DNA of 64,000 nucleotides from Hymenobacter radiodurans. GTDB lineage: Bacteria > Bacteroidota > Bacteroidia > Cytophagales > Hymenobacteraceae. The notes below the pieces were generated by a model that was given only the letters and a program-made list of their open reading frames with translations, was not told where the DNA came from and ran no database searches. Positions 15,931-55,788 of this stretch are shown here, piece after piece. A program made the position numbers and the translations under genes. Positions within the stretch are counted from its first letter, which is position 1. Each line of letters opens with the position of its first letter. The DNA lies in assembly GCF_004355185.1 (NCBI RefSeq), contig NZ_CP037922.1, positions 3,070,001 to 3,134,000 of the forward strand. The letters run 5' to 3'.

Positions 15931-15948
15931 CTTACCGCAACTCTCCTG
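15931..15948 (-). promoter_or_regulatory. CAGGA-type tandem operator copy, acetylesterase 3 side
   Basis: The minus strand reads CAGGAGAGTTGCGGTAAG, 51 bases upstream of the acetylesterase 3 start. The first half-site matches the locus consensus exactly; the second is degenerate. Confidence 0.5.
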
Positions 15949-16123
15949 TACTGTTCGGTGCGCGCCAGCAACCGAAGCACTACTTCGACAGCCCAGATTA
16001 AAGCTTTTGTAGTCCTCCGCGTCGTGATTTTGGACTAGCAGGAAAGTAGTATCGGGCCCTGCAGGAAGCAACGGGCGCCTGTAGCAGGCTGTCAGAATAC
16101 ACTGATCATTAAAATGTTATAGA

Positions 16124-16139
16124 CAGGACACTGCAGGAC
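16124..16139 (+). promoter_or_regulatory. CAGGA-type tandem operator copy, PL11 side
   Basis: CAGGACACTGCAGGAC, two CAGGAC half-sites exactly 10 bases apart, about 98 bases before the PL11 start. It forms the plus-strand side of the divergent promoter region 15881-16237. Confidence 0.6.
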
Positions 16140-16237
16140 ACATCGTGGAATTTTATTGGTCAGCTTTGATAAGTGCACTCTCACCCGGTGTGCATGTATT
16201 TCCGACCTACCCAATTTCCACTTCCAACCCCATTACT

Positions 16238-18429
16238 ATGCTTAAAAACCTACCATGGCTCAAGCGTAATATTGCCTTTTGCGCTTTGCTAGCTGCAACG
16301 GGTACGCCTTTTATGAGCGCCGCGCAGGGCAAGAAAAAAGCCCCCAGACCGCCCAGCGCCAGCTTGAAAAGCTCGGGCGCGGCATTGTGGCCGTCAAGCT
16401 CGACGAGAGCAAAGTATTCGTGAGCTGGCGCCTGCTGGCCACCGATAATCCGGAAGTCGGCTTTAACCTGTTTCGCAAAACGGCCGACGGCGAAACGGTT
16501 AAGCTGAACACCACTCCCATTACGGAGAGCACCAACTGGGTAGACGAAACTGCGGCCGGCATCCAGGACGCAACGTACTTTGTGCGCGCCGTGCGCAACG
16601 GCGGACCAGGACACGGCGAGGAATCCTCGAACCCGGAAACCACCGGAGTGTGGGGCCAGCAGTTTATGCGCTTGCCTTTGCAGCGCCCGGCCGGGGGCAC
16701 CAACCCCAACGGCGCAACCTACACGTATAGTCCCGGCGACTGCTCGGTGGGTGATATGGACGGCGACGGCACCTACGAAATTGTGGTGAAGTGGGACCCC
16801 TCCAATCAGCAAGACAACTCGCTGAGCGGCTTTACCGGCAACGTCATTCTGGACGCCTACAAGCTCAACGGCGAGCGGCTGTGGCGCATCGATCTGGGTA
16901 AGAACATCCGGGCCGGCGCGCACTACACGCAGTTTATGGTGTACGATCTGGACGGCGACGGCAAGGCAGAAGTGGCTTGCAAAACGGCGGATGGCACCAT
17001 CGACGGCACGGGTCAGGTGTTGGGCGACGCCAGCGCTGACCATCGTAACACGGCTGGTTATATTCTGCGCGGGCCGGAGTTCCTGACGGTGTTTAATGGC
17101 CTGACGGGCGCGGCCTACCCCAGCGTACGCTACCTGCCCCAGCGCCATCCCACGGTGGGCGACAACCCCACACCAGCCCAAATCAATACCATCTGGGGCG
17201 ACAATTACGGTAACCGAATCGACCGTTTCCTGGCTGCCGTGGCTTACCTCGACGGTGTAAACCCCAGCCTAGTAATGTGCCGCGGCTACTATACGCGCAC
17301 CGTGCTGGTGGCTTGGGACTTCAAGAACGGACAGCTCACCGAGCGCTGGACCTTCGACAGCAACGACGGCACTCCCGGCAACCTAGCCTACCGCGGTCAG
17401 GGCTATCATAGCCTGGCCGTTGCGGACGTAGACGAAGACGGCAAAGATGAAATCGTGTACGGCGCCTGCGCTATCGACGACGACGGCAAAGGCTTGTACA
17501 CCACCGGCCGCGGCCACGGCGACGCCATGCACGTATCGGACCTGGACCCAGACCGGCCGGGCCTGGAAATATTCTCTGTGCACGAAACCCAGTCCCAATA
17601 TGGCTCGGCGCCCAATGACTTCCGTGATGCGCGCACTGGCACTCTAATTTGGGGCGCACCGGGCCCGAACCAGGGTGATGTAGGCCGGGGCGTAACGATG
17701 GACGTGGATCCTCGCACGTTGGGCACCGAATCGTGGAGCACCCGCGGCGGGCTGTACTCGGCCAAAGGGGTTCAGATTTCGACCGTTAAGCCCAACAGCA
17801 TCAACTTCGGCGTGTGGTGGGATGGCGACTTGCTGCGCGAACAGCTCAATGGCACTGATATCAACAAATGGGACTGGCTGAACAGCCGTACCAACTCTTT
17901 GCTACCCGCTGCTACGCTTGGCGCCGGCTCAAATAATGGCACAAAGGCAACGCCTAACCTGAGCGCCGACTTGTTTGGCGACTGGCGGGAGGAAGTAATC
18001 TGGCGCAACACCAACAACGAGGAGCTGCTGATTTTTACGACCACGATTCCTTCCACCTACCGCCTCACCACGCTCATGCACGACCCCGTGTACCGCCTAA
18101 GCATTGCGTGGCAGAACGTGGGCTACAACCAGCCGCCGCACCCTGGCTTCTACCTGGGCGATGGCATGACGCTGGCCAGCGTCAGCAGTCCGGTAGGGGA
18201 AAAAGCGGCTACCTCAGCCACCGTATATCCTAACCCCACCACTAGCTCGTTCCACATCAACGCCCCTGGTGCATTCACCTACGAAGTGTACAACAACTTC
18301 GGACAAGTAGTAGAGCAAGGCGCGGGCGAGCCGGCGAATACAATTGGGGCCAGCTTGAAGGCAGGCTTGTACACGGTAAAAGTGCACTCCACCGAAGGCG
18401 TGCAAACCATCCAAGTATCCAAGGAATAA
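16238..18429 (+). CDS. Rhamnogalacturonan lyase (PL11-type) with type IX secretion sorting domain (one-base frameshift)
   Basis: Endo- or exo-acting lyase on the RG-I backbone, 730 residues after repair. The start is ATG 16238 with a signal peptide (LPWLKRNIAFCALLAA). Following the junction, the PL11 signature is clear: EKLGRGIVAVK, VFVSWRLLATDNPEVGFNLFR, calcium-binding DxDGDG loops ('MDGDGTYEIVVKWDPSNQQDNS', 'DLDGDGKAEVACKTADGT') and RGYYTRTVLVAWD. The last ~75 residues (VYPNPTTSSFHI ... VQTIQVSKE) are a Por/T9SS C-terminal sorting domain, so it is probably surface-exposed or released. It is the only such domain seen in the locus. One C added at 16341-16345 joins the signal peptide to the mature frame. 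Confidence 0.9.
16341..16345 (+). other. One-base C-run contraction after the PL11 signal peptide
   Basis: AAAAAAGCCCCCAG context. With six C the signal-peptide frame (SAAQGKKKAPQT...) continues into AQRQLEKLGRG. Confidence 0.85.
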
Positions 18430-18447
18430 TCGACTCAGTTAAGTTAG

Positions 18448-18539: not shown

Positions 18540-18586
18540 CAGGAAAAATGCGGTGAGTTCAGGACGAAGCAGGATACTACAGGTAG
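18540..18586 (+). promoter_or_regulatory. CAGGA-type tandem operator copies before the GH2 gene
   Basis: CAGGAAAAATGCGGTGAG at 18540 is followed by three half-sites in strict 10-base register (CAGGACGAAG, CAGGATACTA, CAGGTAGCAC from 18560). They lie about 70-110 bases before the GH2 start. Confidence 0.6.
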
Positions 18587-18653
18587 CACACAGAAGAAAT
18601 CTGGCCTAAGTTGGCTACCTAAATGCCCCTTCTGCCCTTCTGAGCTACTGATT

Positions 18654-21713: not shown

Positions 21714-22898
21714 CTACTTCACCATCTCCATCTCCACGCTGGCCATGATAAATGGCCCCACACCTTTAAAGTCATTTTTCTGGATAGGCTCGCTGAGGTA
21801 GTATTCATAGCTGCCGTCGCGGTAAGGTTTGCCCCCCAGACCACCTACGCTCACCGTGCCATTCAGCGTCAGCAGTCCATCAGGTTCCGTTTGCACAAAC
21901 TGCTTCAGAATTCCCTGGTAGCCTTTGTCGGCCACTTTCTGATAAGATTTATCGAGGTAGCCGAGGCGGGCCCCCTTAGCCAGCGCATACACAAACATGC
22001 ACGAGGCCGAAGCCTCCACGTAGTTGCCCGCCCGAGTACCCTGGTCGGACACTTGCCACCACGCACCGGTTTTGGGGTCCTGATACTTCGCCAGCACGGG
22101 AGCCAACCGTTGCAGATACTTAATGAGCTTGGTCCGCTCGGGATGGTCTTTGGGAAAGTAGTCGAGCACATCTACCAGCGCCATTGCATACCACCCCATA
22201 CCGCGCCCCCAAAAGTTGGGCGACAAGCCAGTTTGCTTATTGGCCCATTGTTCCGTGCGGCTCTCATCGTAGCCGTGGTAAAGCAGCCCAGTCTTCGGAT
22301 CGACCAGGTTTTTCTCGATTAGCGCAAACTGTTTGGCTACTTCATCAAATCCTTTTGGCTGCTTAAATAGCTTACTGTACTCAGCAGAAAAAGGCTCTGC
22401 CATGTATAAGCCATCCAGCCACATCTGGTTAGTATAGCGCTGCTTATGCCAGTAACCGCCGGCCTTTGTACGCGGCTGCGCGTCGAGCTGCTGATGCAGA
22501 CGCTGGGCGGCCTTGCGGTACTTCTCCTGTTGTAAGCCCGGCTGCTGACTTAGCGTAAGCAATATGCGGCCGGTGTTGATATTATCAAGGTTAAAATCCT
22601 CGTATTTGTAACGCTGAATCGAGCCGTCCTCGCCAATGGAGTAGTCCATGATGCGCACAATGTAGTCGAGGTATTTTCGCTCGCCAGTGCGCTCCCACAC
22701 GCGTTCGATGGCCTTCAGCATCAGGCCCTGCTCGTAGCCCCAGCGGGCCACTTTATTCTGCTCCAGCCCCAGCGAATCGGGGTAGCGCTTGATAAACGAA
22801 TCCACCATGCGCTGCGACAACGCGGCAGGCTTATTCTGGGCAAAAACCGCTGGGCAGAGCAGCAGAAACAACAGCGAAAGCAGCAGGTTTTTTTTCAT
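21714..22898 (-). CDS. Unsaturated rhamnogalacturonyl hydrolase, GH105
   Basis: This 394-residue (alpha/alpha)6 enzyme has a signal peptide ending AVFAQNK, so it is probably periplasmic. GH105 enzymes remove the 4,5-unsaturated galacturonyl residue left by RG lyases, releasing it from rhamnose. Family features visible are KVARWGYEQGLMLKAIERVW, YKYEDFNLDNINTGR, the catalytic Asp in NQMWLDGLYMAEPF near residue 161, WGRGMGWYAMALVDVLDYFP, and GNYVEASASCMFVYALAKG. It is the natural partner of the PL11 lyase. It lies between two family-A hairpins and has no CAGGA array in front of it. Confidence 0.92.
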   Translation of the reverse strand: MKKNLLLSLLFLLLCPAVFAQNKPAALSQRMVDSFIKRYPDSLGLEQNKVARWGYEQGLMLKAIERVWERTGERKYLDYIVRIMDYSIGEDGSIQRYKYEDFNLDNINTGRILLTLSQQPGLQQEKYRKAAQRLHQQLDAQPRTKAGGYWHKQRYTNQMWLDGLYMAEPFSAEYSKLFKQPKGFDEVAKQFALIEKNLVDPKTGLLYHGYDESRTEQWANKQTGLSPNFWGRGMGWYAMALVDVLDYFPKDHPERTKLIKYLQRLAPVLAKYQDPKTGAWWQVSDQGTRAGNYVEASASCMFVYALAKGARLGYLDKSYQKVADKGYQGILKQFVQTEPDGLLTLNGTVSVGGLGGKPYRDGSYEYYLSEPIQKNDFKGVGPFIMASVEMEMVK

Positions 22899-22975
22899 AG
22901 AGAAAACTCGTCTGGGGGGCTTTTTTGAAGCTTATTAGCTCACAAATGATTTTTTATATGGTCATAAAAGTCGAC

Positions 22976-23072
22976 CGTCATGCAGAGGCAAAGCCGAAGC
23001 ATCTCGCGTGTTTAGTAAGAGTAGTAATCAGTCATCAGCACGCAAGATGCTTCGCTGCGCTCTGCATGACCG
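22976..23072. repeat. Palindromic intergenic repeat, family A (copy 4)
   Basis: Arms begin CGTCATGCAGAGGCAAAGCC and end GCTCTGCATGACCG with several mismatches: the left arm is of the GAGGC type and the right of the GAGCGCAGCG type. It looks like a mosaic of two subtypes. It lies between GH105 and GH28 genes. Confidence 0.85.
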
Positions 23073-23113
23073 CCTTTTGATTTTTATAGGTATTTCCACT
23101 CAGCCTTAGCGGC

Positions 23114-24775
23114 TTACTTTTTGGAGACGACCACAGCTTTCTTCTTCACCTTTTCGCCAAACTCCACACCTAGTTTCGCCTTCGAGACATCTGTATTAGT
23201 AAGCCGCACATTCTTGGCTTTGTCCGCACCAGATACGCGCAGGAGCACGGCCGCCTGGGGGGCATATTTGATGTTATCGAGGGTGATATTCTGGCTGTTG
23301 TGCACTTCCATTACCGGGTCGGTTTTCTGCGTTAGCAACGTCACGTTGCGCAACTGAATATTGTCTGCCTCAATGCACACCAAGCCCTGCTGACTTTGCA
23401 GCACCGCGTTTTCGATGCTGATGTCTTTGATGCTCATCTCGGGCAAGCCACGCACCATGATACCGGTTTTGGCGCCGTTGCAGGTCACGTTGCGAATCTG
23501 AATTTTGCGGAATTGCGGGGTACCTTCATCCACCGGCTTGGCCGGTGAAACGGGCCGTTCTTTGGAGCCTGCTACCTGCGGCGTGGGGTCCTTGATCATG
23601 TAGTACATGTCGAACAGAATAGCCTCGCCGGGAATGTCTTTCATGTCCACGTTTTCGATGAAGATATTCTCCACTACGCCGCCCCGGCCCCGCGTCGTTT
23701 TGAAACGCAAGCCAATATCGGTGCCGATGAATGTGAGGTTGGAGACATAGATATTGCGCGCTCCGCCCGACATTTCGGAGCCAATCACAAAGCCGCCGTG
23801 GGCCCGGTACACTTTGCAGTTGCGGATGATAAAATTCTCTGTGGGCATGGCCCGCTGCCGCCCCTGCTCATTGCGCCCCGATTTGATACAAATCGCATCG
23901 TCGCCTACATCAAACGTGGAGCCTTCCACCAACCCATTTTTGCAGGACTCCAAATCCAGTGCATCGGTATTGGGCGTGTAGGGGCCGTTAAACACCGTCA
24001 CATTACGTACGATTACATCTTCGCTCATCATGGGGTGCAGGGTCCAGGCTGGCGAATTCTGAAACGTCACGCCTTCCAGTAGTAGCCGTTTGCAGTGGTC
24101 GAGCACCAGCATATCGGGGCGCAGATAGTCCTTTATTTCCTCAAAATCCTTGATTTCGGATTTCTCTTCGCTGAGTACACCAGCCTCTTTTACCATGGTA
24201 CCCTTCAGGCTTTGTGGCGAAGGATACCACCGATCCTGCTTCTCGTTAAGCACACCGCCCGACGCTACCAGCTGCTTCCACTCCGACTCCGTGGAGCGAC
24301 CTTTCTGCACCATGTACCACGCTTCGCCCGCGCCATCCACAATGCCTTTGCCGGTAACGGCTACGTTTTCGAGGTTTTTGCCATAAATCTGCGGCTGATT
24401 GCGCACCGCGGCCAAACCTTCCCAGTTAGTTTTGATCAGCTTGTAGTCAGCCATCTTATCGCTGAACTGCACCAATGCTCCTTCGGCAATGTGCAGGTTC
24501 ACGTTACTGCGCAACTCAATGGGACCCGTGCGCCAATGTCCGCGCGGTACCAGAACTACGCCCCCACCCTTTTGGCCACAGGCGTCAATCGCTTGCTGCA
24601 GGGCCGCAGTGTTGGAAATTACCCCGTCGGCCACCGCGCCATACTTAGCAATCGAAAACGTGTCGGCCCGGAAGGACGTGGTTTTGACGGGGGGCAAATT
24701 TGGCGTAAAAGAAGTTTGGGCAGCAGCCAGCGTGGGCAGCGTCAGCAGGCTAAAAAGAGCGAGGCGTTTTATCAT
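23114..24775 (-). CDS. Secreted GH28 polygalacturonase / rhamnogalacturonan hydrolase-like protein 1
   Basis: Right-handed beta-helix enzyme of 553 residues with a signal peptide ending TLAAAQTSF. Residues from about 43 read FSIAKYGAVADGVISNTAALQQAID, the usual GH28 opening. Catalytic signatures are NTDALDLE (about 268-275), VGDDAICIKSGR (about 289-300) and AHGGFVIGSEMSGG (about 326-339), the last standing in for the classical GHG. An insertion around 180-215 is lysine/glutamate-rich. It probably trims galacturonic acid from pectic oligosaccharides; bond preference cannot be decided. A family-B hairpin lies just upstream. Confidence 0.87.
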   Translation of the reverse strand: MIKRLALFSLLTLPTLAAAQTSFTPNLPPVKTTSFRADTFSIAKYGAVADGVISNTAALQQAIDACGQKGGGVVLVPRGHWRTGPIELRSNVNLHIAEGALVQFSDKMADYKLIKTNWEGLAAVRNQPQIYGKNLENVAVTGKGIVDGAGEAWYMVQKGRSTESEWKQLVASGGVLNEKQDRWYPSPQSLKGTMVKEAGVLSEEKSEIKDFEEIKDYLRPDMLVLDHCKRLLLEGVTFQNSPAWTLHPMMSEDVIVRNVTVFNGPYTPNTDALDLESCKNGLVEGSTFDVGDDAICIKSGRNEQGRQRAMPTENFIIRNCKVYRAHGGFVIGSEMSGGARNIYVSNLTFIGTDIGLRFKTTRGRGGVVENIFIENVDMKDIPGEAILFDMYYMIKDPTPQVAGSKERPVSPAKPVDEGTPQFRKIQIRNVTCNGAKTGIMVRGLPEMSIKDISIENAVLQSQQGLVCIEADNIQLRNVTLLTQKTDPVMEVHNSQNITLDNIKYAPQAAVLLRVSGADKAKNVRLTNTDVSKAKLGVEFGEKVKKKAVVVSKK

Positions 24776-24837
24776 AGCAAAGGGAGAGTAACGGAAAGGA
24801 AATTGATTACTAAAGTTAGAAGGCTAGAGAGCTAGTT

Positions 24838-24992
24838 CCCCTCCTCAGCTGAGGAGGGGTTAGGGGTGGTTGGCTCGTTGAACGATTCGAGATTAGATGG
24901 TTCAGGTAAACAACATCAGCAACGCCTTCCCTCCGGTGGCACCACCCCAGCCGCGCCTTCAGCGCGGCGTCCCCTCCTCAGCTGAGGAGGGG
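24838..24992. repeat. Composite intergenic repeat, family B (copy 1, without inserted family-A hairpin)
   Basis: Both ends carry the same 22-base palindrome (CCCCTCCTCAGCTGAGGAGG followed by GG). Inside are GGGGTGGTTGG on the left and CACCACCCCAGCCGCGC with GCGCGGCGT on the right. The flanks GAGCTAG on the left and AGTTGGTCGTTCT on the right also occur at the copy near 62.6 kb. Confidence 0.85.
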
Positions 24993-25008
24993 AGTTGGTC
25001 GTTCTACC

Positions 25009-27150
25009 TTAAGGCATTTTGCTTAAGCCTTCCCACTGCACTTTCCAGCCTTTTGGAATGCCGGGATTCTCTTCTTTGCAGCCATCGTAGCCGGCGCACA
25101 TGAGGGCTACGGCCGCCAATAAACCACCGTTGCCGGGTAGGTAAATGGGCAAACGACCTTCCTGGTAATTGTGGCCACTGGGCAGGTAAGTATTGGTGCG
25201 CACTTTCATGAGCAACGCATCTACAGCCCGATCGGGCAGGCCGAGGCGCGTGGCGGTCATGGAGGTCATGGGGAAGTCCCAGCCCCAGGTTTTATCCCAG
25301 CTCCAATCCTTCCAAATCAGGTCGAAGGTGCGGCGCATGGTGGCGGGGTCAACTTGGCCGGTGGCGGGCATTACGCCCAAGGCGGCCAGCACGGAAGGGT
25401 GGTCGGTTTTGAACTCGGGGTTAGTGTAAGAGTCGGGGGCGCTTTCGGTGGCTAAGTACACACCGTTGGCCTGGGGCAGCGTCGAGAGCTTTTGCAGGAC
25501 GGCATCCCACTTTGGGTTACGTGGCTGGCCTTGGCGCACGCGCCATTGCTGGGCCGTGTTGAGGGCCCAATTCCAGTACACCAGCTCGAAGGTTGGGTTG
25601 AAAGTTTCTTCGGCTTTAAAGCGCTCCTGCGCTGGAATTACGCCTTTACCGAGAATGTAGCGGTCTTTTTCTTTCTCAAAAAACGGATACGAAGCCATGA
25701 ATTCGGCGGTGGCCGACACCCGATCTTGATACAGCTTTAGCGTAGCCGCATCAGGGCGCTGCCGGTAGATTTCCTCGGCGAAGTAGATGAAGTGGGGCTG
25801 CTGCCAAATCAAAAAGGCCCCCACCGACGAAGGTCCTTCCTGACCCCAGGGGTCCGTCATTTTTTGCCACCGCACACCCTCGTACCCCTGGCGCTTAGCA
25901 ATGCCGCGCGCTACAGCTTGTACATCAGGGCGGGCGTACCAAGTTAGGCTTTTTTCGAGCAACGCCGGGCGACCCCACAACGCAAAGTGAGCCGAGTGCC
26001 ACCAGTGCATTTCCAAGTGTGGCCGGCCATACCAGCTATTGAGCACGAGGCCCGTTTCTTGGGGCGGCTGTGAGCCGGCACCTTGCAGCTTCGTGAGGTA
26101 CTGCGACAGTACAATGCGCCGCTCTAGCTCCTTAGCCCGCGGATCAGTGGTGCCGCTGAAATCAACGGCTCCACCGCTCCGCCAAAAAGCCCCCCACTGC
26201 TGCTGGCTGTTCTGACGCGTGGCGGCGAAGGTTGGGGCAGGCGTGGAGCGCGGACGAGGCGAGAAACGACAGGTGAATTCCAGCACCTTTTCGCTCTTGC
26301 CGGGCGTAAGCACAAACTCGTGGGCTTTGCCCGCTGCCACCGTTGCCGACTGTACCCAGCTCAGCGCCGCATAGTATTTGGTGGTATCCAGTTGGTGGGA
26401 AATCAGAGCGGCACCTTTTTTCTGCTCGGCTATGGCTGATTTGTGCTGATCAGGCTTGGAATAATCGGTGCCCATATCGGCCCAGCCGGCCGTCGGGAAT
26501 GGGAAGCGTAGCGCCACTTTCAAGCGGCCCGATTTTATCAAATCGGACTCCACGCGCGCGGCTACTACATCCTGTTCTTGGTGCCCTACGGTCACGACAT
26601 CGACTGGCACGTTTTCTAGGGCAAAGTGGCTTTTCAGCTCGCCTGTCCACGGATTCAGCTCCTGTCGGATATCCCGCAGATCTTTAATAGTGGCTTCCTG
26701 ACCATTCTTTTTGAGTAGCACAAAGCCCAGATTCCCCAGCTGCAAGCGGTGCGGATTAGCGCGCAGATAATCTACGGCTTCCTTGTTGCCGGGCGTTTTT
26801 ACCTGCACCGCATACGGCACCTTCCGTCCATTCAACTCCACCTCGCGCAGACTTTGCTCAAACTTGTAGCCCTGCGTGTTCGGAAACGTATGCCAGCCCC
26901 ACTCCGACTGCGTGCCCAGCGGCACGCCCTTTTCATAGTAAGTCGGGAAAGTTTGCAACCCCGTGACATCAGCCGTGAAGGCAAAAGCCCCATTGCCCAC
27001 TGACAGCGACGAAAGCGTATCGGTGTTCGTGATAATCACACGGTGGCGCTCCACCAAAGCTTGGCGGTTGATAGGCTTTTGCTGAGCGACAAGGGGCAGA
27101 ATGATACCAGCCAGCAGGACACAGGAAAGGAATTTCGGGAGAAGGCGCAT
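25009..27150 (-). CDS. Secreted (alpha/alpha)6-barrel protein, GH65/GH95-like, family unassigned
   Basis: This 713-residue protein has a signal peptide ending near LPLVAQQKP. The N-terminal half is a beta-rich domain (LSSLSVGNGAFAFTADVTGLQT). The C-terminal half has helical-barrel features: LNSWYGRPHLEMHWWHSAHFALWGR, a QKMTDPWGQEGPSSVGAFLIWQQPHFIYFAEEIY run, 'FNPTFELVYWNWAL' and 'WGWDFPMTSMTATRLG'. The order beta-sandwich then six-hairpin barrel is that of clan GH-L and GH95 enzymes; the E in 'HLEMHWWH' and the E/D in later helices are possible catalytic residues. No exact family can be given. It lies in the minus-strand run below SusC/SusD, so a pectic substrate is likely. Confidence 0.65.
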   Translation of the reverse strand: MRLLPKFLSCVLLAGIILPLVAQQKPINRQALVERHRVIITNTDTLSSLSVGNGAFAFTADVTGLQTFPTYYEKGVPLGTQSEWGWHTFPNTQGYKFEQSLREVELNGRKVPYAVQVKTPGNKEAVDYLRANPHRLQLGNLGFVLLKKNGQEATIKDLRDIRQELNPWTGELKSHFALENVPVDVVTVGHQEQDVVAARVESDLIKSGRLKVALRFPFPTAGWADMGTDYSKPDQHKSAIAEQKKGAALISHQLDTTKYYAALSWVQSATVAAGKAHEFVLTPGKSEKVLEFTCRFSPRPRSTPAPTFAATRQNSQQQWGAFWRSGGAVDFSGTTDPRAKELERRIVLSQYLTKLQGAGSQPPQETGLVLNSWYGRPHLEMHWWHSAHFALWGRPALLEKSLTWYARPDVQAVARGIAKRQGYEGVRWQKMTDPWGQEGPSSVGAFLIWQQPHFIYFAEEIYRQRPDAATLKLYQDRVSATAEFMASYPFFEKEKDRYILGKGVIPAQERFKAEETFNPTFELVYWNWALNTAQQWRVRQGQPRNPKWDAVLQKLSTLPQANGVYLATESAPDSYTNPEFKTDHPSVLAALGVMPATGQVDPATMRRTFDLIWKDWSWDKTWGWDFPMTSMTATRLGLPDRAVDALLMKVRTNTYLPSGHNYQEGRLPIYLPGNGGLLAAVALMCAGYDGCKEENPGIPKGWKVQWEGLSKMP

Positions 27151-27170
27151 GGGCTAATTTGCTATTGAAA

Positions 27171-27219
27171 GAACGTCATGCCGAGCGGTAGCGCAGCATC
27201 TCGCTCGGCATGACGTTCT
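27171..27219. repeat. Short palindromic repeat, family A (copy 5)
   Basis: Seventeen-base perfect arms (GAACGTCATGCCGAGCG and complement) with a 15-base loop holding the GCGCAGCATCT core. A minimal version of the longer family-A hairpins. Confidence 0.85.
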
Positions 27220-27247
27220 GATTGTTGATATTCATTCGTGTTGATTC

Positions 27248-30200
27248 TTATTCTCGCACGAGCGTTACGCTCATAAGGCCAATGACCACGTCATTGGCTA
27301 GGGCTTTAAGCGTGAGGCTGCGAAGCTTTTTCTTCGGATTGAGGGGCATATCCAACACGCTGGCGGCTCCACCGTCGATGGCGCGGGTGCTGAAGCCTTT
27401 GATGCTGGTGTAGTCCTTAAAATCGCGGGTGAGCAGGCCGGTTTTGAGATGAAGGCGGAAGGGTTTGGGGGCCCCTGTATCAAAGGCGAAATCATCCTGA
27501 AAGTAGTCCTGCTCAATCGGCGCCCAGTTATCAGGGTTGCGCAGAGGCAGCGTATCGGTGGTGCCGTCGGTGTAGGTTACCACCACTTCGCCGTTCACGA
27601 GTTGGCTTTGCATAGGATTGGTGGAGCCGGCCATGAGCAGGTAGGCATGGCTGGATTTGCCCCCCAGCGGCACTGTCGCCTGATCCGCGTAATTGTCCCA
27701 CTGCGACACGAACAGAATGTTCTTCTCCCCTGCCGCGCTAGGCGTGCGCAAGGGCGTACCCCAGGGCAACGCAATTTCGTTTTTGCCCCCCGCCAGCTTG
27801 CGCAAACCGGCGTCGTCGATGACGGCTTGGGTGAGCGGGTAGCACCAGTTGCCAATGCCTTGGGTGGGCAGTTGGAGCGTAGGTCCGGCGGGACGAGGCG
27901 AGAGGTATACGTTCTGAAAAATTCGCGTTACCTGGTCATTAAAATGCGGGGCTAGATTGACGGTTTCATAGCGCGCTTTGGCGACTTTGGGAGCGTCCCA
28001 GGTCAGTACTTTGTCCACGACCCGGCCGTTGCTCCATTCCACGGTCACGACATTGGAGCCGGGTACCACGAACGCAGTGGGCACTGCAATTTCTGCAGTC
28101 GTGCCGCGCGGGATTTTCAGGTTGGTAACGTACAGTTTGCGACCATTGCCTACGGTTACTTTCGCGGCTATATCTTCCGTATTATTCTGTACCCAAAACC
28201 GCAAGCCATTCGGCTGGGGGCTTTTTCAGCAATAATTTTCACGGCGTCCTGAATCTCAAAAGGCAGGGGTGCCCACCAGGAAAGTCCGCCCTGACGGAGC
28301 TGCACGAAGGCAGTGCGGGCACCTGTTGAGCCAATTACTTGAGCCGTTAGCGTCGAGCCGTTTGGGGTCGCATTGCGCAACGCTTTTTGCGGGTCGAACA
28401 CCTTGGTGATGGTAGCGTGCGGGAAACGCACTTCCAGCTGGCTGTTGGCGGCATACACCGGAGCTATTGCGGCCGTGTCGGGTGCGGCACCTTGCCAAGT
28501 TATGGCTACCTCGTATTTCGCGGCTGGCGCGCTATTAATTTCAATAACCGGCTGACCTACAGCTGCCTCTAGCGCTTGCCACTTACCGGGCTGCCCGTTC
28601 ACGGTTATCGACTGAATATCGTCGGCCTGGGCTTGCACCTGCATACGCAGCCGGAGCGGCTGGGCGAAGCGCGGCGTGATAGTGTAAGCATCTTGCTGTC
28701 CCTGCCGCTTAAAGTCAAAATCGATGTCAGGCACCGACAGGGCAGCGTTGTTCCAGGCGGCGGGCAAACCTGGGCGGATGGTCAAAATGCCCCCCAGCGC
28801 ATCCGGTACAATGCCGAACAATCCTTCCAAGAGTGTGCGGGATGCCACACCGATAGGGTCGGCAAAGTCACGGTACAGCTCGCCGCGGTGAGCATCGTAG
28901 AAGGACACCTGCTGAATATTGCCCGGACTAGAGCCCAAATACATGCTTTCGAGCAGAGCACTTTTCCAAAGCTTAAACGCCTCATCTGTTCGCCCGGCCT
29001 GCCAGTTAGCCAGCGTAGTATGCAGCACTTCGGCTAGCGCCACATTGTTGATAGACCAGTCGTAGGGCTGCCAGTTGGTGGTGGAAAGCAGATGGTAGCC
29101 CTCATCCGGCAAGCCCGTGGCCCGCACCGGAATATGCGGAATGCTGGTATCCACATAGCGCAGGGCTTGGTAAGCCTGAAAAGCATCCGGCACATCCGAA
29201 TCGAGGGCGTGATACACCGTCCAGAGAGCAGCGGCGGGGTGCAGTTGCTTCAACCCCAGCGCATCCTGATACTCGGCGTACCAACCCTGGCCCGGCATCC
29301 ACAAACGGGCGTTGAGGGCCTGATGAATCTTAGTGGCTTCCTGCTGGTATGGCTCAGGATTTTGGCCCAGGCGTGTTGCTAGCTCAGCGGCCACCTTGTT
29401 GGCGAGGTAGTTATAGGCCGACGAATGAGTTACGGCGCCACCACTGTATTGCAGGGCGTCGCTGGCCCAGATGGCGGCGTAAGCGTCGTAGAGGCCGTCA
29501 TTATCGGTGTCGAAGTTGCGCTTTTCCCAGGCCAGATGGCGCTGCAATACGGGCCACAGTTCGCGGGCCATGGTCAGGTCGCCGGTCCAGCGCAGGTGGC
29601 GCAGCAACGCGTCGATATAGACCAGGTTCATATCGTAGTGATGAGGGCGAAAGTCACCCCCAGGATTGCGCGAAATGTAGCCGCTGCTAAACACCGCCGT
29701 TCCCAGTTTTTCCTGGTGGCGCGCCAGGTGCAGGGCCGTATCCATGACCAGCGGCCCCACCGCCGGACTAGTCAACTGCGACTTGGCATACGACCGAAAG
29801 TGGGTTTGCGCGCGGTCGTGCCAGCCGAGTGGGTCAGCGGTATAGGCCCCGCGCCAGCCATTAAGAGGCATGCGCCAGGCAATGGAGCCGTGCAGGTATG
29901 CAGGGTCCTGCCAAATAGCATCCGCGGCAATGCTTAAGGCGCCACCTAGGGTATTGATGTAAGGGTCAGGGGTTTGCACCCGCACACGGTTAGCCAGCTT
30001 TTGCCGGGCAGCCTCGGCGCGCGTCCAAACTTGGGGCAACTCGTTGTAGCGTGGGGCGGCCGTTTCCGGCTTTTGAATGGTGAAATAGAGTGCTTCCCCG
30101 GCTTTTACCTTTATAGCGCCCGTCAGCACAGGGGTTGTTGAGTTTTGGGAGGCGTAGAGTTGGGCGGGCGATGCTTGCTGAGTAGCATCGGCAATGTGGG

Positions 30201-31002
30201 TTTCGGAGGTTGGTGGAACGACGCCTGTCAGCGTAGGGCGGGCAGCTGGAATGATGGCGACGGGGGGCTTTTTGCTTGCTGCCTCGGCTACTAGAGCTTC
30301 ATTTTTTGGGGGCTTGGGTGGGGCGCCGAATGTTAGACGGAAGGTGTTGTTTTTTAGCTCAAATACATTGCCCTGGCAATACTCCGGCTTGAGGTAGAAG
30401 TTGGATTCGGGGTCGGCGCCGATGTCGCCGTCGCGGCTGAATTTCTTGCCCGTAGCGCCGCCGAAGGCCCACAGCAGGCGAACTTTCCCGGCGGGCACAC
30501 CATCGAAGGTGGCACGAACCAGCATGCCTTCCGCGTCGGCTTGGGCCAGCACCTCCAGTTGTAGCTTACCGGCTCCCAGCAGTGCATCCTTCACTTCGTA
30601 GAGCATGGCGCCGGGCCGGTAGCGGGCCTCAATGCTATCAGCCTCAATCAGCCACTTGCTTTGGCCATCGACTAGTAAGCCGAGCTTAAAATTGCCCCCC
30701 ATGCCAGGCAGGTACAGCGCAAACTCCGGTAGGTCGCCGGTTTCTACGCGGAAGGCGGTGTTGGTGCCGTAGAGCGCACGGGTGAAGCGCTTGTTGCCAT
30801 TGGTGATGACGAAGTCGGAGCCGTCGGGGCGGTAGCGGAGCGTGCGGGCCTGATCGTGCCAGAGCGCTGGCGGAGTTGGCGGCGCAGATTGCGCCTGGGC
30901 GCCGGTGCTCAACAAACAAACTATGCCCACCACCAGCCAGCCTGCTACCAGTGTCGGCAGCGAATTTTTAATGAAGGTTTTTCTACAGTCGGATCTACTC
31001 AT
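27248..31002 (-). CDS. DUF4450-domain secreted protein (one-base frameshift)
   Basis: This protein has 1251 residues after repair and an N-terminal hydrophobic signal (LVAGWLVVGIVCLLSTGAQAQ). The first ~330 residues match the DUF4450 pattern (RYRPDGSDFVITNGNKRFTRALYG, FALYLPGMGGNFKLGL). The middle (~390-750) is an (alpha/alpha)6 barrel ('GAYTADPLGWHDRAQTHFRSYAKSQ', 'DTDNDGLYDAYAAIWASDALQYSGGAVTHSSAYNYLAN'), like glycogen-debranching or six-hairpin glycosidases. The remainder is beta-rich, suggesting binding modules. One base added at 28216-28220 joins frame 28168-31002 to 27248-28204 at EKAPQPNGLRFW. DUF4450 proteins are known from plant-polysaccharide loci, but their reaction is not known to me. 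It follows SusD directly. Confidence 0.8.
28216..28220 (-). other. One-base run contraction breaking the DUF4450 gene
   Basis: The coding strand reads AAAAAGCCCCCAGCC; six C gives KAPQPNGLRF. The frame downstream is then open to 27248. Confidence 0.85.
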
Positions 31003-31111
31003 TACCCTTTTTTATGCGTGAATTTGCCCCCCAGGGCCGCAAAAAACCCGGCTCTGACCAGGCTATATTCCTGGGAGAGCCGGGCTTTACTTTACCTGCC
31101 TGTCAGCGACT

Positions 31112-32602: not shown

Positions 32603-32673
32603 GAGAAGTAGTAGTTAGAAGCTAAGAGCTGGGATACCGGAGCAAGCCCCGACCGTCAGCTGGTGGCTGAAAC

Positions 32674-37554: not shown

Positions 37555-37590
37555 CCTCCTGTTCTCTCCTGAAAGCAGGAAACTACAGCC
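37555..37590 (-). promoter_or_regulatory. CAGGA-type tandem operator before rhaT
   Basis: The minus strand reads CAGGAGAGAACAGGAGG, two canonical half-sites exactly 10 bases apart (37555-37571), about 60 bases upstream of the rhaT start. An adjacent plus-strand CAGGAAACTACAG begins at 37576. Confidence 0.65.
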
Positions 37591-42933: not shown

Positions 42934-44258
42934 AAAAGTCTATCTACGCCGTGTTTGATGTTGGCAAGACCAACAAAAAAGTCTTGCTTTTCGATGAGGA
43001 TCGGCAGATCATTGACGAGCACCAGCAGGTATGTCTGGAAACCGTAGATGAGGAAGGATTTCCGTGCGAAACGCTCACGCGGCTTTCGCAGTGGGTGCAG
43101 GACCGCTGGCACGCTCTGCGACATAATCCGCACTACAATCTGAAGGGAGTGAATTTCACTTCCTACGGCGCCAGCTTTGTGCACCTTGGCGCCAATGGGC
43201 AGCCCATATTGCCGCTCTACAATTACCTAAAGCCGATGCCACCAGCCTTGATGGCTCAGTTTTACGCTGAGCTTGATCAGGGCCCCGTTGACTTTGCTAC
43301 GGCTACCTGCTCGCCGCAAATGGGAATGCTTAACTCCGGTATGCAGCTGTATTGGCTCAAGCAAACCAAGCCCGAGCATTACGCTCGCATTCGTACGTCG
43401 CTGCATTTGCCGCAGTATCTCTCGTACCTGATTAGCGGTGAAGCTTTTAGCGATTATACCTCCGTCGGTTGCCACACGGGCCTCTGGGATTTCAAGCGCA
43501 ACCAATACCACGACTGGGTATACCGCGAGGGCATCGACGACAAATTAGCCCCCCTGACTAAAGACTCGATTGCTTCCGTGGTCGATGGCATTTTGGTGGG
43601 CGTTGGCTTGCATGATAGCTCGGCGGCGTTGCTCCCGTATATGCAACAGGATGAGAAGCCTTTCCTGTTAATTTCAACGGGCACCTGGGCTGTGACGCTT
43701 AGTCCCTTCAATCGAGAGCCACTCACGCCGGAGCTGTTGCGCCGCGACTGCCTGAGTTTCCTTTCGCCCAAGGGCGAGATGACTAAAGCATCACGGGTAT
43801 TTTTCGGTCGCGAGCATGACTTTCAGGTGCAGCGTATTGCTCACCACTTTCACGTAAAGCCCGATTTTTACCACTCCTTGATGCTGGCCCGGCCTTACGA
43901 TGAAGCCTCGCATGACTTTCAGCCGTGGTGCATGCGCGGCACCGGTCCCTTCCCGGAGCGGCACGCGAAAGAGTGGGATCTATCGGGCTTTACTACTGCG
44001 GGTGATGCATACCATCACCTCATGCACGGCCTCATGGATATTCTCACCGAATCCATCAACCTGATTCGGCGCGACGAGAAGCTGATTTACGTGGATGGTG
44101 GCTTCGCCCGCAACCCGTTGTTCATGCAGATTCTCGGCTGGAATTTCCCCGACGCGAAAATCAAGACTCTGGAAGTACCTCAAGCTACTGCCCTTGGTGC
44201 CTTGATTCATTTAGAACAAGGTGAAGCTTGGAAGAAAACGCAATTGCTATTCTCCTAA
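42930..44258 (+). CDS. FGGY-family carbohydrate kinase, probable rhamnulokinase
   Basis: This 442-residue cytoplasmic kinase of the FGGY family (actin-like ATPase fold) probably phosphorylates L-rhamnulose to L-rhamnulose-1-phosphate. The phosphate-1-type motif YAVFDVGKTNKKVLLFD is at residues 6-22. The second domain has LISTGTWAVTLSPFNREPL and the adenosine-site segment YVDGGFARNPLFMQILGWNFPDAKI, followed by PQATALGALIHL. The ATGA overlap with the isomerase and lack of another kinase in the pathway support the role. It is not close enough to E. coli RhaB for me to use that symbol. A composite hairpin lies 18 bases downstream. Confidence 0.88.
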   Translation: MKKSIYAVFDVGKTNKKVLLFDEDRQIIDEHQQVCLETVDEEGFPCETLTRLSQWVQDRWHALRHNPHYNLKGVNFTSYGASFVHLGANGQPILPLYNYLKPMPPALMAQFYAELDQGPVDFATATCSPQMGMLNSGMQLYWLKQTKPEHYARIRTSLHLPQYLSYLISGEAFSDYTSVGCHTGLWDFKRNQYHDWVYREGIDDKLAPLTKDSIASVVDGILVGVGLHDSSAALLPYMQQDEKPFLLISTGTWAVTLSPFNREPLTPELLRRDCLSFLSPKGEMTKASRVFFGREHDFQVQRIAHHFHVKPDFYHSLMLARPYDEASHDFQPWCMRGTGPFPERHAKEWDLSGFTTAGDAYHHLMHGLMDILTESINLIRRDEKLIYVDGGFARNPLFMQILGWNFPDAKIKTLEVPQATALGALIHLEQGEAWKKTQLLFS

Positions 44259-48780: not shown

Positions 48781-50208
48781 TTAGAACTTCACACTAGTAC
48801 TGTTCGCTACGGCTACGGACTGCTGGTTTTGGGAGGTGATATTCATATCCTTCACAGTCCAGTTCTTGGCGTAGCTGATGTCACCAGCGGTTTGCGCCGT
48901 CATCGTGATGTTGCTCAGGGTCATGTTTTCAAGCAGAGAGTTTGCTTGACCTTCGGCCGAAATCGCCTTTTTGGCGTTGGTCACGCGTACGTTGCTGATG
49001 TGCACGTCGCGGAAGTAAGGGAGGCCTTTTTCGGCAGGCTCTACTTTGGTCAGCATGGCTTTCCAATGGGCCGGCAGCGTTTCCTGAGTGTAGCCTTCGG
49101 GCAGCGTGGAGTAGCTGTAGGAGGGGTTCCAGTTCATGGTCATCTCGATGGCCACACCTACGCCGTCCATCTCGATATTATCAACGCGAATATCCTCTAC
49201 TGTACCGCCCCGCGTGAGGGCCGATTTGATGCGGATACCAACCTTGGTGCCTTTCGCTTTCAGGTTGCGGGCAATGACGTGGCGAATGCCCCCCGAGGTC
49301 TCGCTGCCGCAGGTAAAAAGCCCCCCACCGGCACCAGCGACGCAGTTTTGGATGAGCACGTACTCCGTGGGCTTGTTCACCCGCAGGCCATCCGCGTCGC
49401 GGCCCGACTTCAGGCAGAAGTTGTCGTCGTTGCAGTCGATGTCGCAGTTTTGCACCAGCACGTAACTGCTGGAATCAATGTCGATGCCGTCGGTGCTGGG
49501 GCCGTGGCCGCCGAGATTATTGCGGATGATGAGGCCGTCGGCGGTGACGTTCTTGGAGTACAACACATGAACCGTCCAGAAACCGGCCCGCTGCAACGTA
49601 ATATCTTTAATGGTAACGTTTGAGGAGTTTGACACGAGCAGCGTGCGTGGGCGCTTGGCGTCGTAGTCGACAATCCAGCGCAGGCCTTTTGCATTATAGT
49701 CTTTGCGCAAAGCCCAATACATATCCCAGAATGGCTTGCCTTGTCCATCCACGGTTCCTTTGCCAGTGATGGCCACGTTATCCTGATCCAGCACATTGAT
49801 GAGCGCCGCGGGCCACACCATCTCGATGCCAGCAATGCGGCTCGGCATTTCAGGGTAGTCTTTGATATCCTGGCTGCCGAGCAGCGTGACACCTTTATCG
49901 AGGTGCAGAGTAACGCCTTTCTTCAAAAAGATAGAGCCCGTCAGATACTGACCAGGCTCAAATGTAACCACACCGCCATTTTTGGCAGCGGCGTCAATGG
50001 CTTTTTGAATGGCTTTGGTGTTAAGTGTTTTGCCATCACCGACTACGCCATACGTAGTGGCTGCAAACGTCGTTTTAGTCGTGGGCAGTGTTCTGGCGCC
50101 TACTTCCTTTACCCAGGCCGGATCTTCGGCGGTGAGCGCCGCTAGGTCGGTTACAAACGGACATAACCAGGAAATAAGCAGAAACAGAAAGGAGAGCAGC
50201 AGCTTCAT
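48781..50208 (-). CDS. Secreted GH28-family beta-helix protein 2
   Basis: This 475-residue protein has a signal peptide (LLLSFLFLLISWLCPFVTDLAALT). The GH28 opening FAATTYGVVGDGKTLNTKAIQKAIDAAAKNGG is clear. Catalytic-region motifs are STDGIDIDSS (about 239) and CNDDNFCLKSGRD (about 261). Where most GH28 enzymes have a histidine in a GHG-type motif, this protein reads AGAGGGLFTCGSETSGG (about 296), with Gly instead of His, so it may be inactive or use an altered mechanism. Related divergent GH28 enzymes act on RG-I or RG-II branches. A CAGGA-type triple array lies 155-185 bases upstream. Confidence 0.83.
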   Translation of the reverse strand: MKLLLSFLFLLISWLCPFVTDLAALTAEDPAWVKEVGARTLPTTKTTFAATTYGVVGDGKTLNTKAIQKAIDAAAKNGGVVTFEPGQYLTGSIFLKKGVTLHLDKGVTLLGSQDIKDYPEMPSRIAGIEMVWPAALINVLDQDNVAITGKGTVDGQGKPFWDMYWALRKDYNAKGLRWIVDYDAKRPRTLLVSNSSNVTIKDITLQRAGFWTVHVLYSKNVTADGLIIRNNLGGHGPSTDGIDIDSSSYVLVQNCDIDCNDDNFCLKSGRDADGLRVNKPTEYVLIQNCVAGAGGGLFTCGSETSGGIRHVIARNLKAKGTKVGIRIKSALTRGGTVEDIRVDNIEMDGVGVAIEMTMNWNPSYSYSTLPEGYTQETLPAHWKAMLTKVEPAEKGLPYFRDVHISNVRVTNAKKAISAEGQANSLLENMTLSNITMTAQTAGDISYAKNWTVKDMNITSQNQQSVAVANSTSVKF

Positions 50209-52519: not shown

Positions 52520-55500
52520 TCAGAAGCCGATGCGCAGGCCAACCACCAAGCTTTTGGTGCTCAGGTTGCGGGCTTGCGCCAGCTCGCCAGAGGTGGTACC
52601 GATGTCGGTAGCTTCGGGGTCTAGGCCTTTGAACTTGGTAATCAGGAAGGGATTGACCGCATTCACATACACACTCAAATTGGTGCTGTAAAACTTGGCA
52701 GCCAGGTCTTTGGGAATGGTGTAGGTAAGCGAAATGCTACGCACTTTGGCGAAGCTGCCATTCTGGTACCGCATAGCGTCGCCGAAGGTGGCGATGTCCT
52801 GCTGGCTGTTTGGCCGGGGTGCCTCGGTGGTCGGGTTGGCGGGAGTCCAGTAGTCCACTTGTTGGCCCGGAAAACGCCCCCCAAGGCCAGGCCGGAAGCC
52901 CGTGGCCAGCATCTGCCCGACGCGGGCATACACGAGGAAGCTCAAATCGAAGCCGGCGTAGGAGAAGCTGTTGCTCACGCTGCCGCTCCATTTGGGACGG
53001 TTTGAGCCCAGCACAATCTGGTCTTGGGTGTTGATCAGGCCATCATTGTTTACGTCCACAACTTTTATCGTACCGGGCTGCGCGTTGTAGCGTGCCAGGC
53101 CTTCGGTGTCGTAGCTCTGCCAGATACCGTCGAACTTATAGTCGTAGTACACGCCCAGCGGCTCGCCGATAAACCAGCGGTTGCCCAGGTCATCCTGCTT
53201 GCCCGAGGCTAGCTCCACGAATTCTTCCTTGTTCTTGGTAAAAACGAAGTCAGTGCCCCAGCGGAACTTGCTGGTTTCCACGTTCACCGTCGACACCGTT
53301 GCTTCTACACCGGTGTTGCGCGTGGCGCCGATGTTTTGCAGCACGTTGTTAAAGCCCGAAACCGTAGGAAGCGCGCGGGGCAGCAACAGACCGGTGGTAT
53401 TCGCACGGTACACTTCCACCGAGCCGTTGATACGATTTTGGAACAAACCGAAGTCCAGACCTACGTTGACGGTGTTGGTCCGCTCCCACTCCAGCTCACT
53501 GTTGGGTAAGCCCCCAGCGTATTGGGTAGCGTGCCGGGGGTGGGCGTGTAGCCATAGGCTGGCGTCTCGTCCCACACATACGGCGTTTGCTGCAAGGTGC
53601 CGCCGGTGGTGTACGGGTCCACGGAAGCCTGGCCTACGGAGCCGTAGCCGCTGCGCAGCTTCAGCTCGCTCAGCATGGCTATGTCTTTAAAGAAGCCTTC
53701 TTCCTGTAGTTTCCAAGCCAGAGCCACGGAAGGGAAAAATGCCCATTTACGGCCCTCAGCCAGCACCGAAGCGCCATCGGCGCGGCCCGTAGCCGTGAGC
53801 ACGTACTTGTCGCGGAAGCTATAGTTCACCCGTCCCATCCACGACATCAGCTGCCGTTGAATAAAGGGGCCGGAGCCGAAGCTTTGAGCCGCCGCGTTGT
53901 TAGTCGAGCCCAGGTTGTACCACTTCTGCGAGTCGTAAGGCAGATTGGTGGCACTGATGGACGAGCCTTCGCTGCGGTCCTGCTGAATACTTTGGAGCAG
54001 CGTTACTCCCAGGCTGTGGTCGGAGGTGATTTGCTTATCATAGAAAAGCAAGTTCTCAACGACGTACGTAAAGTTCTGATTCTGGTCGTATTGCGCAAAG
54101 GATACGGCGTTGGGGCCCCCACCCTGCCCGGTTGAGCGGGCCGAGCGAAACTGACCGTTGCGGGCGTTGCGGAAGTCGGGGCCCACGTTGAGGCGGTAGC
54201 GCAGACCTTCGAGCAGGCGGGCTTCGGCGTACAGGCTGGTGAAGAAACGGGCTACGCGTCGCTCGCTGAAGGTATTCTCCGGGTCGAGCAGCGGGTTCAG
54301 GATGTTGGCGTCCGCGCCGGGGTTGGTCTGAAATACGCCTTCCGCGTTGTATGGCGCGGCATAGGGCAGTTGCCCCACGGCCTTGCCGTAGATGTCGGGG
54401 CCGACGTTCTGAATGCCGAGGCTAGCGTTGGTGGAGCCGCCCACCGAAATGACTTTGTTGACTTTGAAGTCGAAGGTGGCGCGGGCAGTGTAGCGAGTAA
54501 AGTCCTGGCCGGGCTGAATACCTTCCTGGTTCAGGTAGCCCACCGACAGCGACGCGCGCAGGTTTTCGGAGCCACCGCTGGCGCTTAGCTGGTGGTTTTG
54601 GGTGAAGGCATTGCGCAAGGCCGCATCCTGCCAATCGAAGCTCTTGATCTTGCTGGGGTCGTAGATCGGAATCTGCGTAACGTTCGGGAAGCCGTACAGC
54701 GCAAAACGAGCTTTCTCCTCCTCCGTCGCTTCGCGCGTTTCAGGAACGCGGGCGTCGAAATCCCGCCAAGTGTACGCTCCGGCGATGTTGGCCCACACGT
54801 TCGGGTCGGTGCCAAACAGCGTGAAATCGTTTACGGGATTGGGGTAAGGCGTGGTGTAGGAGCCGGACGTACGATACGCTTCGCGGCGCACGTCGGCAAA
54901 CTCCGCCGCGTCAAACAGCTCCGGAATGCGCAAAGCCCGGTCGAAGCTGCCGTAGGTGTTGTAGCTGATGTTGAACTTACCTTCCTTGCCGCGCTTGGTC
55001 GTAACGATGACCACGCCATTTGCCCCCGCGAACCGTAAATGGCCGTAGCTGAGGCATCTTTTAGCACTTCTACCGATTCAATATCATCAGGATTGAAGTC
55101 GTTCAGACCTGTGCCTTGGGCCAGCGGGATACCATCGACCACGTACAACGGCTCGTTGGAAGCCCGCACCGAGCGGTTGCCGCGAATACGAATGGCCGGC
55201 GTCTCGCCAGGCCGAAAATTGCCCCCCGCCACGTCCACACCGGCTGCGCGGCCTTGCAAGGCCTGCGTCAAGTTCTGAACTGGCACCTGCTTAATCTTCT
55301 CCTCCGATACCGACGACAGCGCGCCCGTTACATCGCTCTTTTTCTGGGTGCCGTAGCCGACCACCACCACGTCTGCCAACTGGGTTACATCCTCGGCCAA
55401 TGTCACGTTTATGGGCGACGCACTCGCGGGCACTTCCTGGGTTACGAAGCCAATCGACGAGATTGTAAGCGTAGCACCGGCCGGGGCCTGCAAGCTGAAG

Positions 55501-55697
55501 CTGCCATCGGGGTTGGTACTCGTGCCCGTAGTAGTGCCTTTCACCACCACACTTGCCCCCGGCAAACCACTTTTATCGGTTGCCGTTGTCACTCGGCCCG
55601 TCACGGTTTGATCGGTCTGGGCATAAACACTGGCGGGCGCCAATCCAACCAAAACGGTCAGCGGCAGCCAGCGAGCTGAGTTATAAAGTTGTAACAT
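52520..55697 (-). CDS. SusC/RagA-family TonB-dependent transporter 2 (two one-base frameshifts)
   Basis: Outer-membrane oligosaccharide importer, 1059 residues after repair. The start MLQLYNSARW (55697) opens a signal peptide ending near ASVYAQTD. Then come the carboxypeptidase-like domain (TVTGRVTTATDKSGLPGASVVVKG), LADVVVVGYGTQKKSDVTGALSS, and a plug with GVDVAGGNFRPGETPAIRIRG and DIESVEVLKDASATAIYGSRG. The barrel has RYTARATFDFKVNKVIS and ends RIGF. Bases added at 55023-55027 and 53511-53515 join three frames. SusD 2 follows after 35 bases. A strong CAGGA array lies about 76 bases upstream. Confidence 0.92.
53511..53515 (-). other. One-base C-run contraction (second break in SusC 2)
   Basis: Six C join 'LPNTLGAYPT' frame to 'QYAGGLPNSELEWERTNTV' on the coding strand. 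Confidence 0.8.
55023..55027 (-). other. One-base C-run contraction (first break in SusC 2)
   Basis: Six C restore the conserved SusC plug reading AIYGSRGANGVVIVTTKRG. Confidence 0.88.
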
Positions 55698-55772
55698 AAA
55701 GGAGGAGTTGGAAGTGGGATTGCAAACAAGGACTTTCTGCCTACCAAGTACTTGTCTTCCTTGCCCAAATCC

Positions 55773-55788
55773 CTCCCGCACTCTCCTG
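55773..55788 (-). promoter_or_regulatory. CAGGA-type tandem operator before SusC 2
   Basis: The minus strand reads CAGGAGAGTGCGGGAG, then GGAT in register, about 76-91 bases before the start codon. Confidence 0.65.

Follow-up and report, generated by a model that had tools for sequence, protein, structure and literature searches.

A tandem 10-bp repeat at a fixed distance from the promoters of rhamnose and rhamnogalacturonan genes in Hymenobacter radiodurans, and its probable reading by a GntR-LacI chimera

The window analysed in this study is a stretch of 64,000 nucleotides of the Hymenobacter radiodurans genome (4.92 Mb; contig NZ_CP037922.1, here G000:C2:3070001-3134000), corresponding to 1.3% of the genome length. 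Its genes for L-rhamnose uptake and breakdown, for attack on rhamnogalacturonan I (RG-I) and for SusC/D uptake are preceded by an 18-bp head-to-tail repeat, which is close to CAGGAGAGTNCAGGAGGG in the window and has the form CAKGAYAGTNCAKGAYAG across the phylum. That this repeat is an operator is close to certain. The motif and a spacing of 37 bases to the -7 promoter box recur across Bacteroidota. Judged from sequence, the operator is probably read by the GntR-LacI chimera encoded at 40202, which would act as a class II activator. The fixed spacing and the conservation in the phylum are two features that had been overlooked in the preliminary description of this DNA.

Tandem half-sites in the window

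Nine places with CAGGA-like half-sites in exact 10-base register had been listed in the preliminary description. Upon reading all nine, the arrangement held at eight. Offsets are counted from the first C of the repeat (0), so that the spacer covers 18-36 and the -7 box starts at 37; this box is the sigma-A element TAnnTTTG, graded as matches out of its 6 defined bases. The operators are as follows:

16124..16168, plus strand: PL11 operator; repeat CAGGACACTGCAGGACAC at 16124-16141, -7 box CAGCTTTG at 16161-16168; matrix score 15.5, box 5/6 at 37
18540..18614, plus strand: GH2 operator; promoter-proximal pair at 18570-18587, -7 box TAAGTTGG at 18607-18614; matrix score only 7.2, register chosen among several
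35935..35979, minus strand: SusC1 operator; repeat CGGTAGTCTACAGGAGGG at 35979-35962, -7 box TAATTTGG at 35942-35935; matrix score 13.4, box 5/6
37527..37571, minus strand: rhaT operator; repeat CAGGAGAGAACAGGAGGG at 37571-37554, -7 box CAGATTTG at 37534-37527; score 27.0, box 5/6; kept before rhaT in L031, L032, L033 and L065
37649..37693, plus strand: rhaEW operator; repeat CAGGAGAGTGCAGGAGTT at 37649-37666, -7 box TTCTTTTG at 37686-37693; score 22.0, box 5/6; kept before rhaEW in L031, L032 and L065
41512..41556, plus strand: L-rhamnose isomerase operator; repeat CAGGAGAGTTCAGAACAG at 41512-41529, -7 box TAGGTTGC at 41549-41556; score 25.7, box 4/6; kept in L031, L032, L033 and L065
50351..50395, minus strand: GH28 operator; repeat CAGGAGGGTGCGGGAGGG at 50395-50378 plus one weaker unit, -7 box CAGATTTG at 50358-50351; score 16.1, box 5/6
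55744..55788, minus strand: SusC2 operator; repeat CAGGAGAGTGCGGGAGGG at 55788-55771, -7-like GTACTTGG at 55751-55744; score 21.9; at 37 no more than a 3/6 box, equalled at 36, 38 and 41
15931..15958, minus strand: weak CAGGA-like site at the acetylesterase gene, excluded from the operator count; score 12.1

The GH2 operator has CAGGA-type units at 18540, 18560, 18570 and 18580, with a poor unit (GCGGT) at 18550. The SusC1 register reads CGGTAGTCTA and then CAGGA, the first unit matching 3/5. The acetylesterase site at 15931 was dropped: it has a single good half-site whose partner is poor, lacks a -7 box at 37, and shows a 5/6 box at 42 in its other register.

The motif goes beyond chance because the matches in the window exceed those in shuffled DNA. 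A matrix trained on just 12 sites, all taken from outside this genome (three Hymenobacter genomes and Arsenicibacter), found 7 window sites scoring at least 13, compared with a mean of 0.32 and a maximum of 2 in 100 dinucleotide shuffles of the window. Six sites had a -7 box matching 4/6 or better at 37; no shuffle contained any. Even a relaxed scan of the whole window (score 2, box at least 5/6) gave six matches, every one at a listed site.

In the whole genome, near-exact matches cluster in the window. With at most one mismatch, CAGGAGRGTNCAGGA has 9 matches, 5 of them inside the window; with at most two there are 36 (8 in the window), as against 18 for the pattern read backwards. The DNA was read for 22 of the 28 matches outside the window, and two of these (L024 and L029) show a 4/6 or better -7 box at 37. 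L024 has no open reading frame (ORF) closely downstream. L029 (G000:C2:3198409) lies before a short ORF without Pfam match, followed by a GH115 region, and L004 (G000:C2:2079431) lies before a GH28 gene with a poor -7 match (2/6); both are possible regulon members. The earlier statement that no copy exists elsewhere thus stands within the window, and outside it gives way to these two plausible unlinked candidates.

The repeat is locked to the promoter

Between offsets 28 and 51, the best TAnnTTTG match lies uniquely at 37 in seven of the nine listed sites and is tied there in SusC2. Boxes of at least 5/6 occur at 37 in 6/9 sites; elsewhere between offsets 20 and 51 there are none, and extending the range to 59 adds a single one at 52. 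The binomial probability of six boxes at 37 among nine sites is 2e-13, a value that carries no correction for how offset and register were selected. For GH2 and SusC1, the register was picked among several after the box was seen. The SusC1 register has independent support, since the site with the box at 37 is retained before the SusC1 orthologs of L065 and, slightly altered, of L032. Among the eight sites, mean identity is 32% in the spacers, compared with 69% in the repeats. Because the spacers have diverged, the 37-base distance is no relic of recent copying.

In Flavobacterium, TAnnTTTG is reported at -12 to -5 (PMC9723704; this and the other papers cited by number are drawn on from excerpts). 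Carried over to the window, these coordinates would place the repeat at about -49 to -32 relative to the transcription start site, with its centre at about -40.5, over the -33 element.

The same geometry was found across the phylum. The set comprised 80 RhaEW loci (bifunctional rhamnulose-1-phosphate aldolase/dehydrogenase) with up to 10 kb on each side; RhaEW of the window is 85-87% identical to that of three Hymenobacter genomes. A matrix seeded with 19 sites from those same 80 loci gave 88 matches scoring at least 16, compared with 7 for the reversed matrix, and 66 of the loci contained a motif scoring at least 15. Promoter-proximal matches of at least 13 numbered 73 in 63 loci (38 rhaT, 31 rhaEW, 4 isomerase). 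Keeping one promoter per genus label and gene left 38 promoters under 33 labels, some of which are unplaced metagenome-assembled genomes. In this non-redundant set, a box of at least 5/6 stands at 37 in 24/38 promoters, a fixed position over the -35/-33 region as expected of a class II activator. At any other offset from 28 to 47 at most 2 such boxes occur, and the local background rate is 1.1%. The result for the -7 box is independent of the matrix, since the latter spans positions 0-17 only. The logo of these promoters consists of two blocks, 0-17 and 37-44, separated by a near-random gap, and base 42 is T in 38/38. TTTG was absent at offsets 8-17 in all 38. Among the titles and abstracts listed by literature searches pairing GntR with rhamnose or Bacteroidetes, none dealt with a GntR-type rhamnose regulator or with this motif.

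A GntR-LacI chimera is the likely reader

The preliminary description had named a GntR-type gene in the window as one of two candidate regulators, the other being a distant gene, and co-occurrence, adjacency, covariation and a paralog all speak for it:

40202..41245, plus strand: GntR-LacI chimeric regulator, proposed operator reader

The N-terminus of its product is a GntR winged helix (Pfam GntR 2.9e-13, above cut-off; 1.7e-13 by profile to the AraR DNA-binding chain 4egy), and the C-terminus is a sugar-binding domain of LacI/GalR type. That this protein reads the operator is likely.

The 80 RhaEW loci were queried for linked regulators with the GntR protein, AraC domains and two DeoR proteins, all of the own genome. 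A GntR relative lies within the locus in 46/80 cases, an AraC protein in 4/80 and a DeoR protein in 0/80. AraC and DeoR were consequently rejected as linked regulators, the latter even though the period of 10 falls within the 10-11 bp of DeoR-type sites. GntR relatives are found in 42/66 motif-bearing loci, compared with 4/14 others. Of the 80 genomes, 41 were searched whole, and 40 of these have a strong GntR relative (E 6.8e-60 or better); the motif, too, is absent from the single genome without one, L044.

A draw of 198 genomes, which may overlap those of the 80-locus set, was examined for co-occurrence. A close RhaEW (E<=1e-295) is present in 24, and 23/24 also carry the GntR protein (E<=1e-70). 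No genome of the draw without close RhaEW has the GntR protein at this threshold; weaker relatives (E 7e-41 to 2e-63) occur in five further genomes. The GntR gene lies within about 6 kb of rhaEW in 21/23 genomes, the exceptions being G231 and G167. In flanks chosen without reference to the motif, a motif score of at least 12 was reached in 19/22 genomes with GntR (own one excluded) vs 2/11 without, and a motif whose box at 37 matched 4/6 or better in 17/22 vs 1/11. G117 and G235, both with GntR, have a 3/6 box at 37. The motif was not found in G160, where GntR is 37% and RhaEW 43% identical.

Further support comes from covariation between protein and DNA. In the 42 loci with both motif and GntR gene, the recognition-helix residue after RDT (or RNT) is Ala in 11 and otherwise Val or Ile (31 loci). 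Both half-sites have T as their third base in 11/11 Ala loci and in 2/31 Val/Ile loci. In AraR and FadR, residues flanking the covarying position contact DNA (PMC4494728, Table 1). The covariation follows clades and therefore backs the GntR protein as reader without proving it. SRNT instead of SRDT is found at the recognition helix of the GntR relatives of L050, L086, L059 and L168, and half-sites of the AAAGA/AAGGA type in L050 and L086.

A galactan-side paralog has the same layout

A GntR paralog of Flavobacterium (L146 4570-7888) is divergent to genes for an aldose epimerase and two GH53 galactanases, and is likely to mark a galactose/galactan regulon of this genus. Together with 8 orthologs (48-81% identical; L151-L158), it is accompanied by CTGGTAGGTACTGGTA or a close variant in the 10-bp layout in 9/9 cases. 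Here the half-site is CTGGTA. The -7 box lies 37 bases from the C in 7/9, and 38 and 35 bases in the remaining two. Common to the rhamnose and galactan consensus are C at 0, G at 3, G at 7, T at 8, C at 10 and G at 13.

CTGGT-type repeats had 14 matches in 20 paralog loci, 2 of them with a full -7 box at 37 (L146 and L148). In L148, from Sphingobacterium, CTGGTCTAGACTGGT at 4482 (minus strand) has TATCTTTG at 37 and points toward another GntR paralog gene, possibly a case of autoregulation. FucR of Bacteroides is of GntR type (PMC3878776, in part). A scan not extending to it, over 8 regions that surround GntR proteins in further Bacteroidota genomes (L221-L228), gave nothing convincing; in L221, where the neighbours were identified, the GntR gene adjoins TRAP transporter genes.

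Evenly poised, in our view, is the wider proposal that a Bacteroidota clade of GntR-LacI sensors activates via its own 10-bp head-to-tail half-sites at about -40.5, which take the place of the -33 element; polysaccharide regulons (those for rhamnose/RG-I and galactan, perhaps also further ones) would then share one promoter grammar and differ only in half-site letters.

Activator or repressor, and other possible readers

In the mechanism that we favour, the 40202 chimera would bind the repeat with one winged helix per 10-bp unit on a single DNA face, within the stretch from about -49 to -32, which lacks a -33 element. A rhamnose-derived ligand in the sugar-binding domain would then let it recruit RNA polymerase to the promoter in the manner of a class II activator. 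Extra units, as in front of GH2 and GH28, may add cooperative binding.

The same protein on the same operator might instead be a repressor that covers the -33 region and blocks RNA polymerase until rhamnose or a product of it releases the DNA. NanR, a GntR repressor, does bind tandem repeats (PMC8012715, in the excerpt available). A repressor would not, however, need a -7 box distance that stays exactly the same from gene to gene and from genus to genus, and the DNA under the repeat showed no TTTG -33 element. The fixed 37-base spacing therefore makes an activator likelier, and we regard repression as rather unlikely; the activator mode is probable.

Activation by the chimera has several observations to contend with. 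AraR-like GntR-LacI chimeras are known as repressors, and sites of the GntR family are usually palindromes (PMC4494728, in part); no palindromic GntR-consensus operator is seen here, the conserved motif being a 10-bp direct repeat. The same excerpts name direct-repeat exceptions, NanR, FarR and NagQ. At 37, SusC2 and the isomerase have boxes of no more than 3/6 and 4/6, respectively. A motif at score 15 is missing in 14/80 rha loci, 4 of which have GntR in the locus, and three of the 22 GntR-bearing draw genomes (G140, G105, G203) lack the motif at 12. Among the genomes without GntR, 10/11 carry only 42-47% identical RhaEW, so that distance is confounded with GntR absence; the covariation is likewise confounded with ancestry. 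In a blind period-by-offset scan, the 20 paralog loci showed no surplus for period 10 with offset 37 (3 there, up to 6 in other cells), and most GntR paralogs examined outside the galactan group show no such site.

A different regulator, AraC-type, hybrid two-component or of another kind and encoded elsewhere, might read the repeat, the GntR gene being a mere neighbour. The rhamnose activator of Bacteroides is indeed an AraC-type RhaR (PMC3870299 and PMC3878776, excerpts), the own genome has 17 AraC-type matches, and GntR lies outside the +-10 kb locus in 24/66 motif-bearing loci. Against this stand the genome-level co-occurrence of GntR and RhaEW, the covariation, the scarcity of AraC in the rha loci, and the GntR paralog with the same layout and register in different letters. 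The known AraC and hybrid two-component motifs described in these excerpts moreover have 21-bp periods, compared with 10 here. We consider such a reader improbable. Neither an extracytoplasmic function (ECF) sigma factor gene nor a hybrid two-component gene was found among those of the window ORFs that were scanned with Pfam.

That the repeat is the upstream element of an ECF-type promoter, which would share the fixed spacing of promoter elements, is very improbable and was rejected because the -7 box is of the ordinary sigma-A type (TAnnTTTG; PMC9723704, in part); a tandem repeat with extra in-register units does not fit a sigma element, nor does a GntR paralog with the same layout and other letters.

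Target genes and their neighbourhood

The idea that a single regulon links the uptake and breakdown of rhamnose to RG-I attack and to SusC/D uptake is supported by operator placement and by the concentration of sites in the genome. The targets in the window are:

36459..37529, minus strand: rhaT, L-rhamnose permease (Pfam RhaT 1.9e-68)
37743..39851, plus strand: rhaEW (NCBIfam NF006191 1267.7 bits, above cut-off)
41653..44258, plus strand: operon of an L-rhamnose isomerase-like gene and an FGGY sugar kinase (FGGY Pfam domains)
16279..18429, plus strand: PL11 rhamnogalacturonan lyase (Pfam RGL11_C 1.2e-237)
21714..35913, minus strand: SusC1, SusD1, DUF4450 protein, GH28 and GH88 in succession, behind the SusC1 operator
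48781..50208, minus strand: GH28 (Pfam Glyco_hydro_28 2e-30)

Further targets are GH2 and SusC2/SusD2, where SusC2 was identified because its first fragment resembles SusC1 orthologs. The isomerase-like gene scores 499 bits with TIGR02629, below the cut-off of 646.75. Judged by gene order, the set from SusC1 to GH88 may share one promoter. Window scans revealed no site before GH106 or another rhamnosidase-like gene, and a rhamnosidase search of the own genome gave the window's own gene, without upstream motif, as sole match.

Several genes are split between frames, namely those for an FAD_binding_2 protein (8998-10649), the acetylesterase (15115-15901), GH2 (18655-21522) and SusC2 (53461-55781). 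These splits are either indel errors of long reads or signs of decayed genes. Directly behind the sugar kinase lie LutABC-like genes (44579-46685) with CCG, LUD and LUD/Fer4/LutB_C domains, whose products could oxidise L-lactate yielded by RhaEW.

Comparison with known systems

ECF sigma systems are part of the usual account of polysaccharide control in Bacteroides. Such control is also commonly told via SusR and hybrid two-component systems (PMC3878776, in part). Numerous other Bacteroidota families appear to couple polymer attack and uptake with monomer breakdown through a sensor of the GntR type. The fixed geometry is a rule for locating such regulons, and it suggests that AraR-like proteins can activate from direct repeats.

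HTCS_Rgu of Bacteroides likewise controls rhamnogalacturonan loci via direct repeats (PMC3878776, excerpt), but is a hybrid two-component regulator of AraC type with about 21 bp between units, and none was seen among the window ORFs scanned. The AraC-type RhaR of Bacteroides thetaiotaomicron also serves a Bacteroidota rhamnose regulon under positive control, and differs by its family and by a repeat period of 21 bp (PMC3870299, excerpt). The DeoR-type RhaR shares the rhamnose genes and imperfect direct repeats with a 10-11 bp period (PMC3870299, excerpt), whereas the own-genome queries returned no DeoR relative in the 80 rha loci.

AraR of Bacillus subtilis resembles the 40202 protein in combining a GntR winged helix with a LacI-type sugar-binding domain and in governing a sugar regulon. 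Unlike the present operators, which are 10-bp direct repeats at a set distance from the promoter, those of AraR are palindromic, and AraR is designated a repressor. NanR of Escherichia coli is a GntR protein that binds tandem direct repeats cooperatively (PMC8012715, excerpt). It is a repressor with a FadR-type effector domain, and its repeats are under half a turn apart, whereas those of the 40202 system lie one full turn apart, at the position of an activator.

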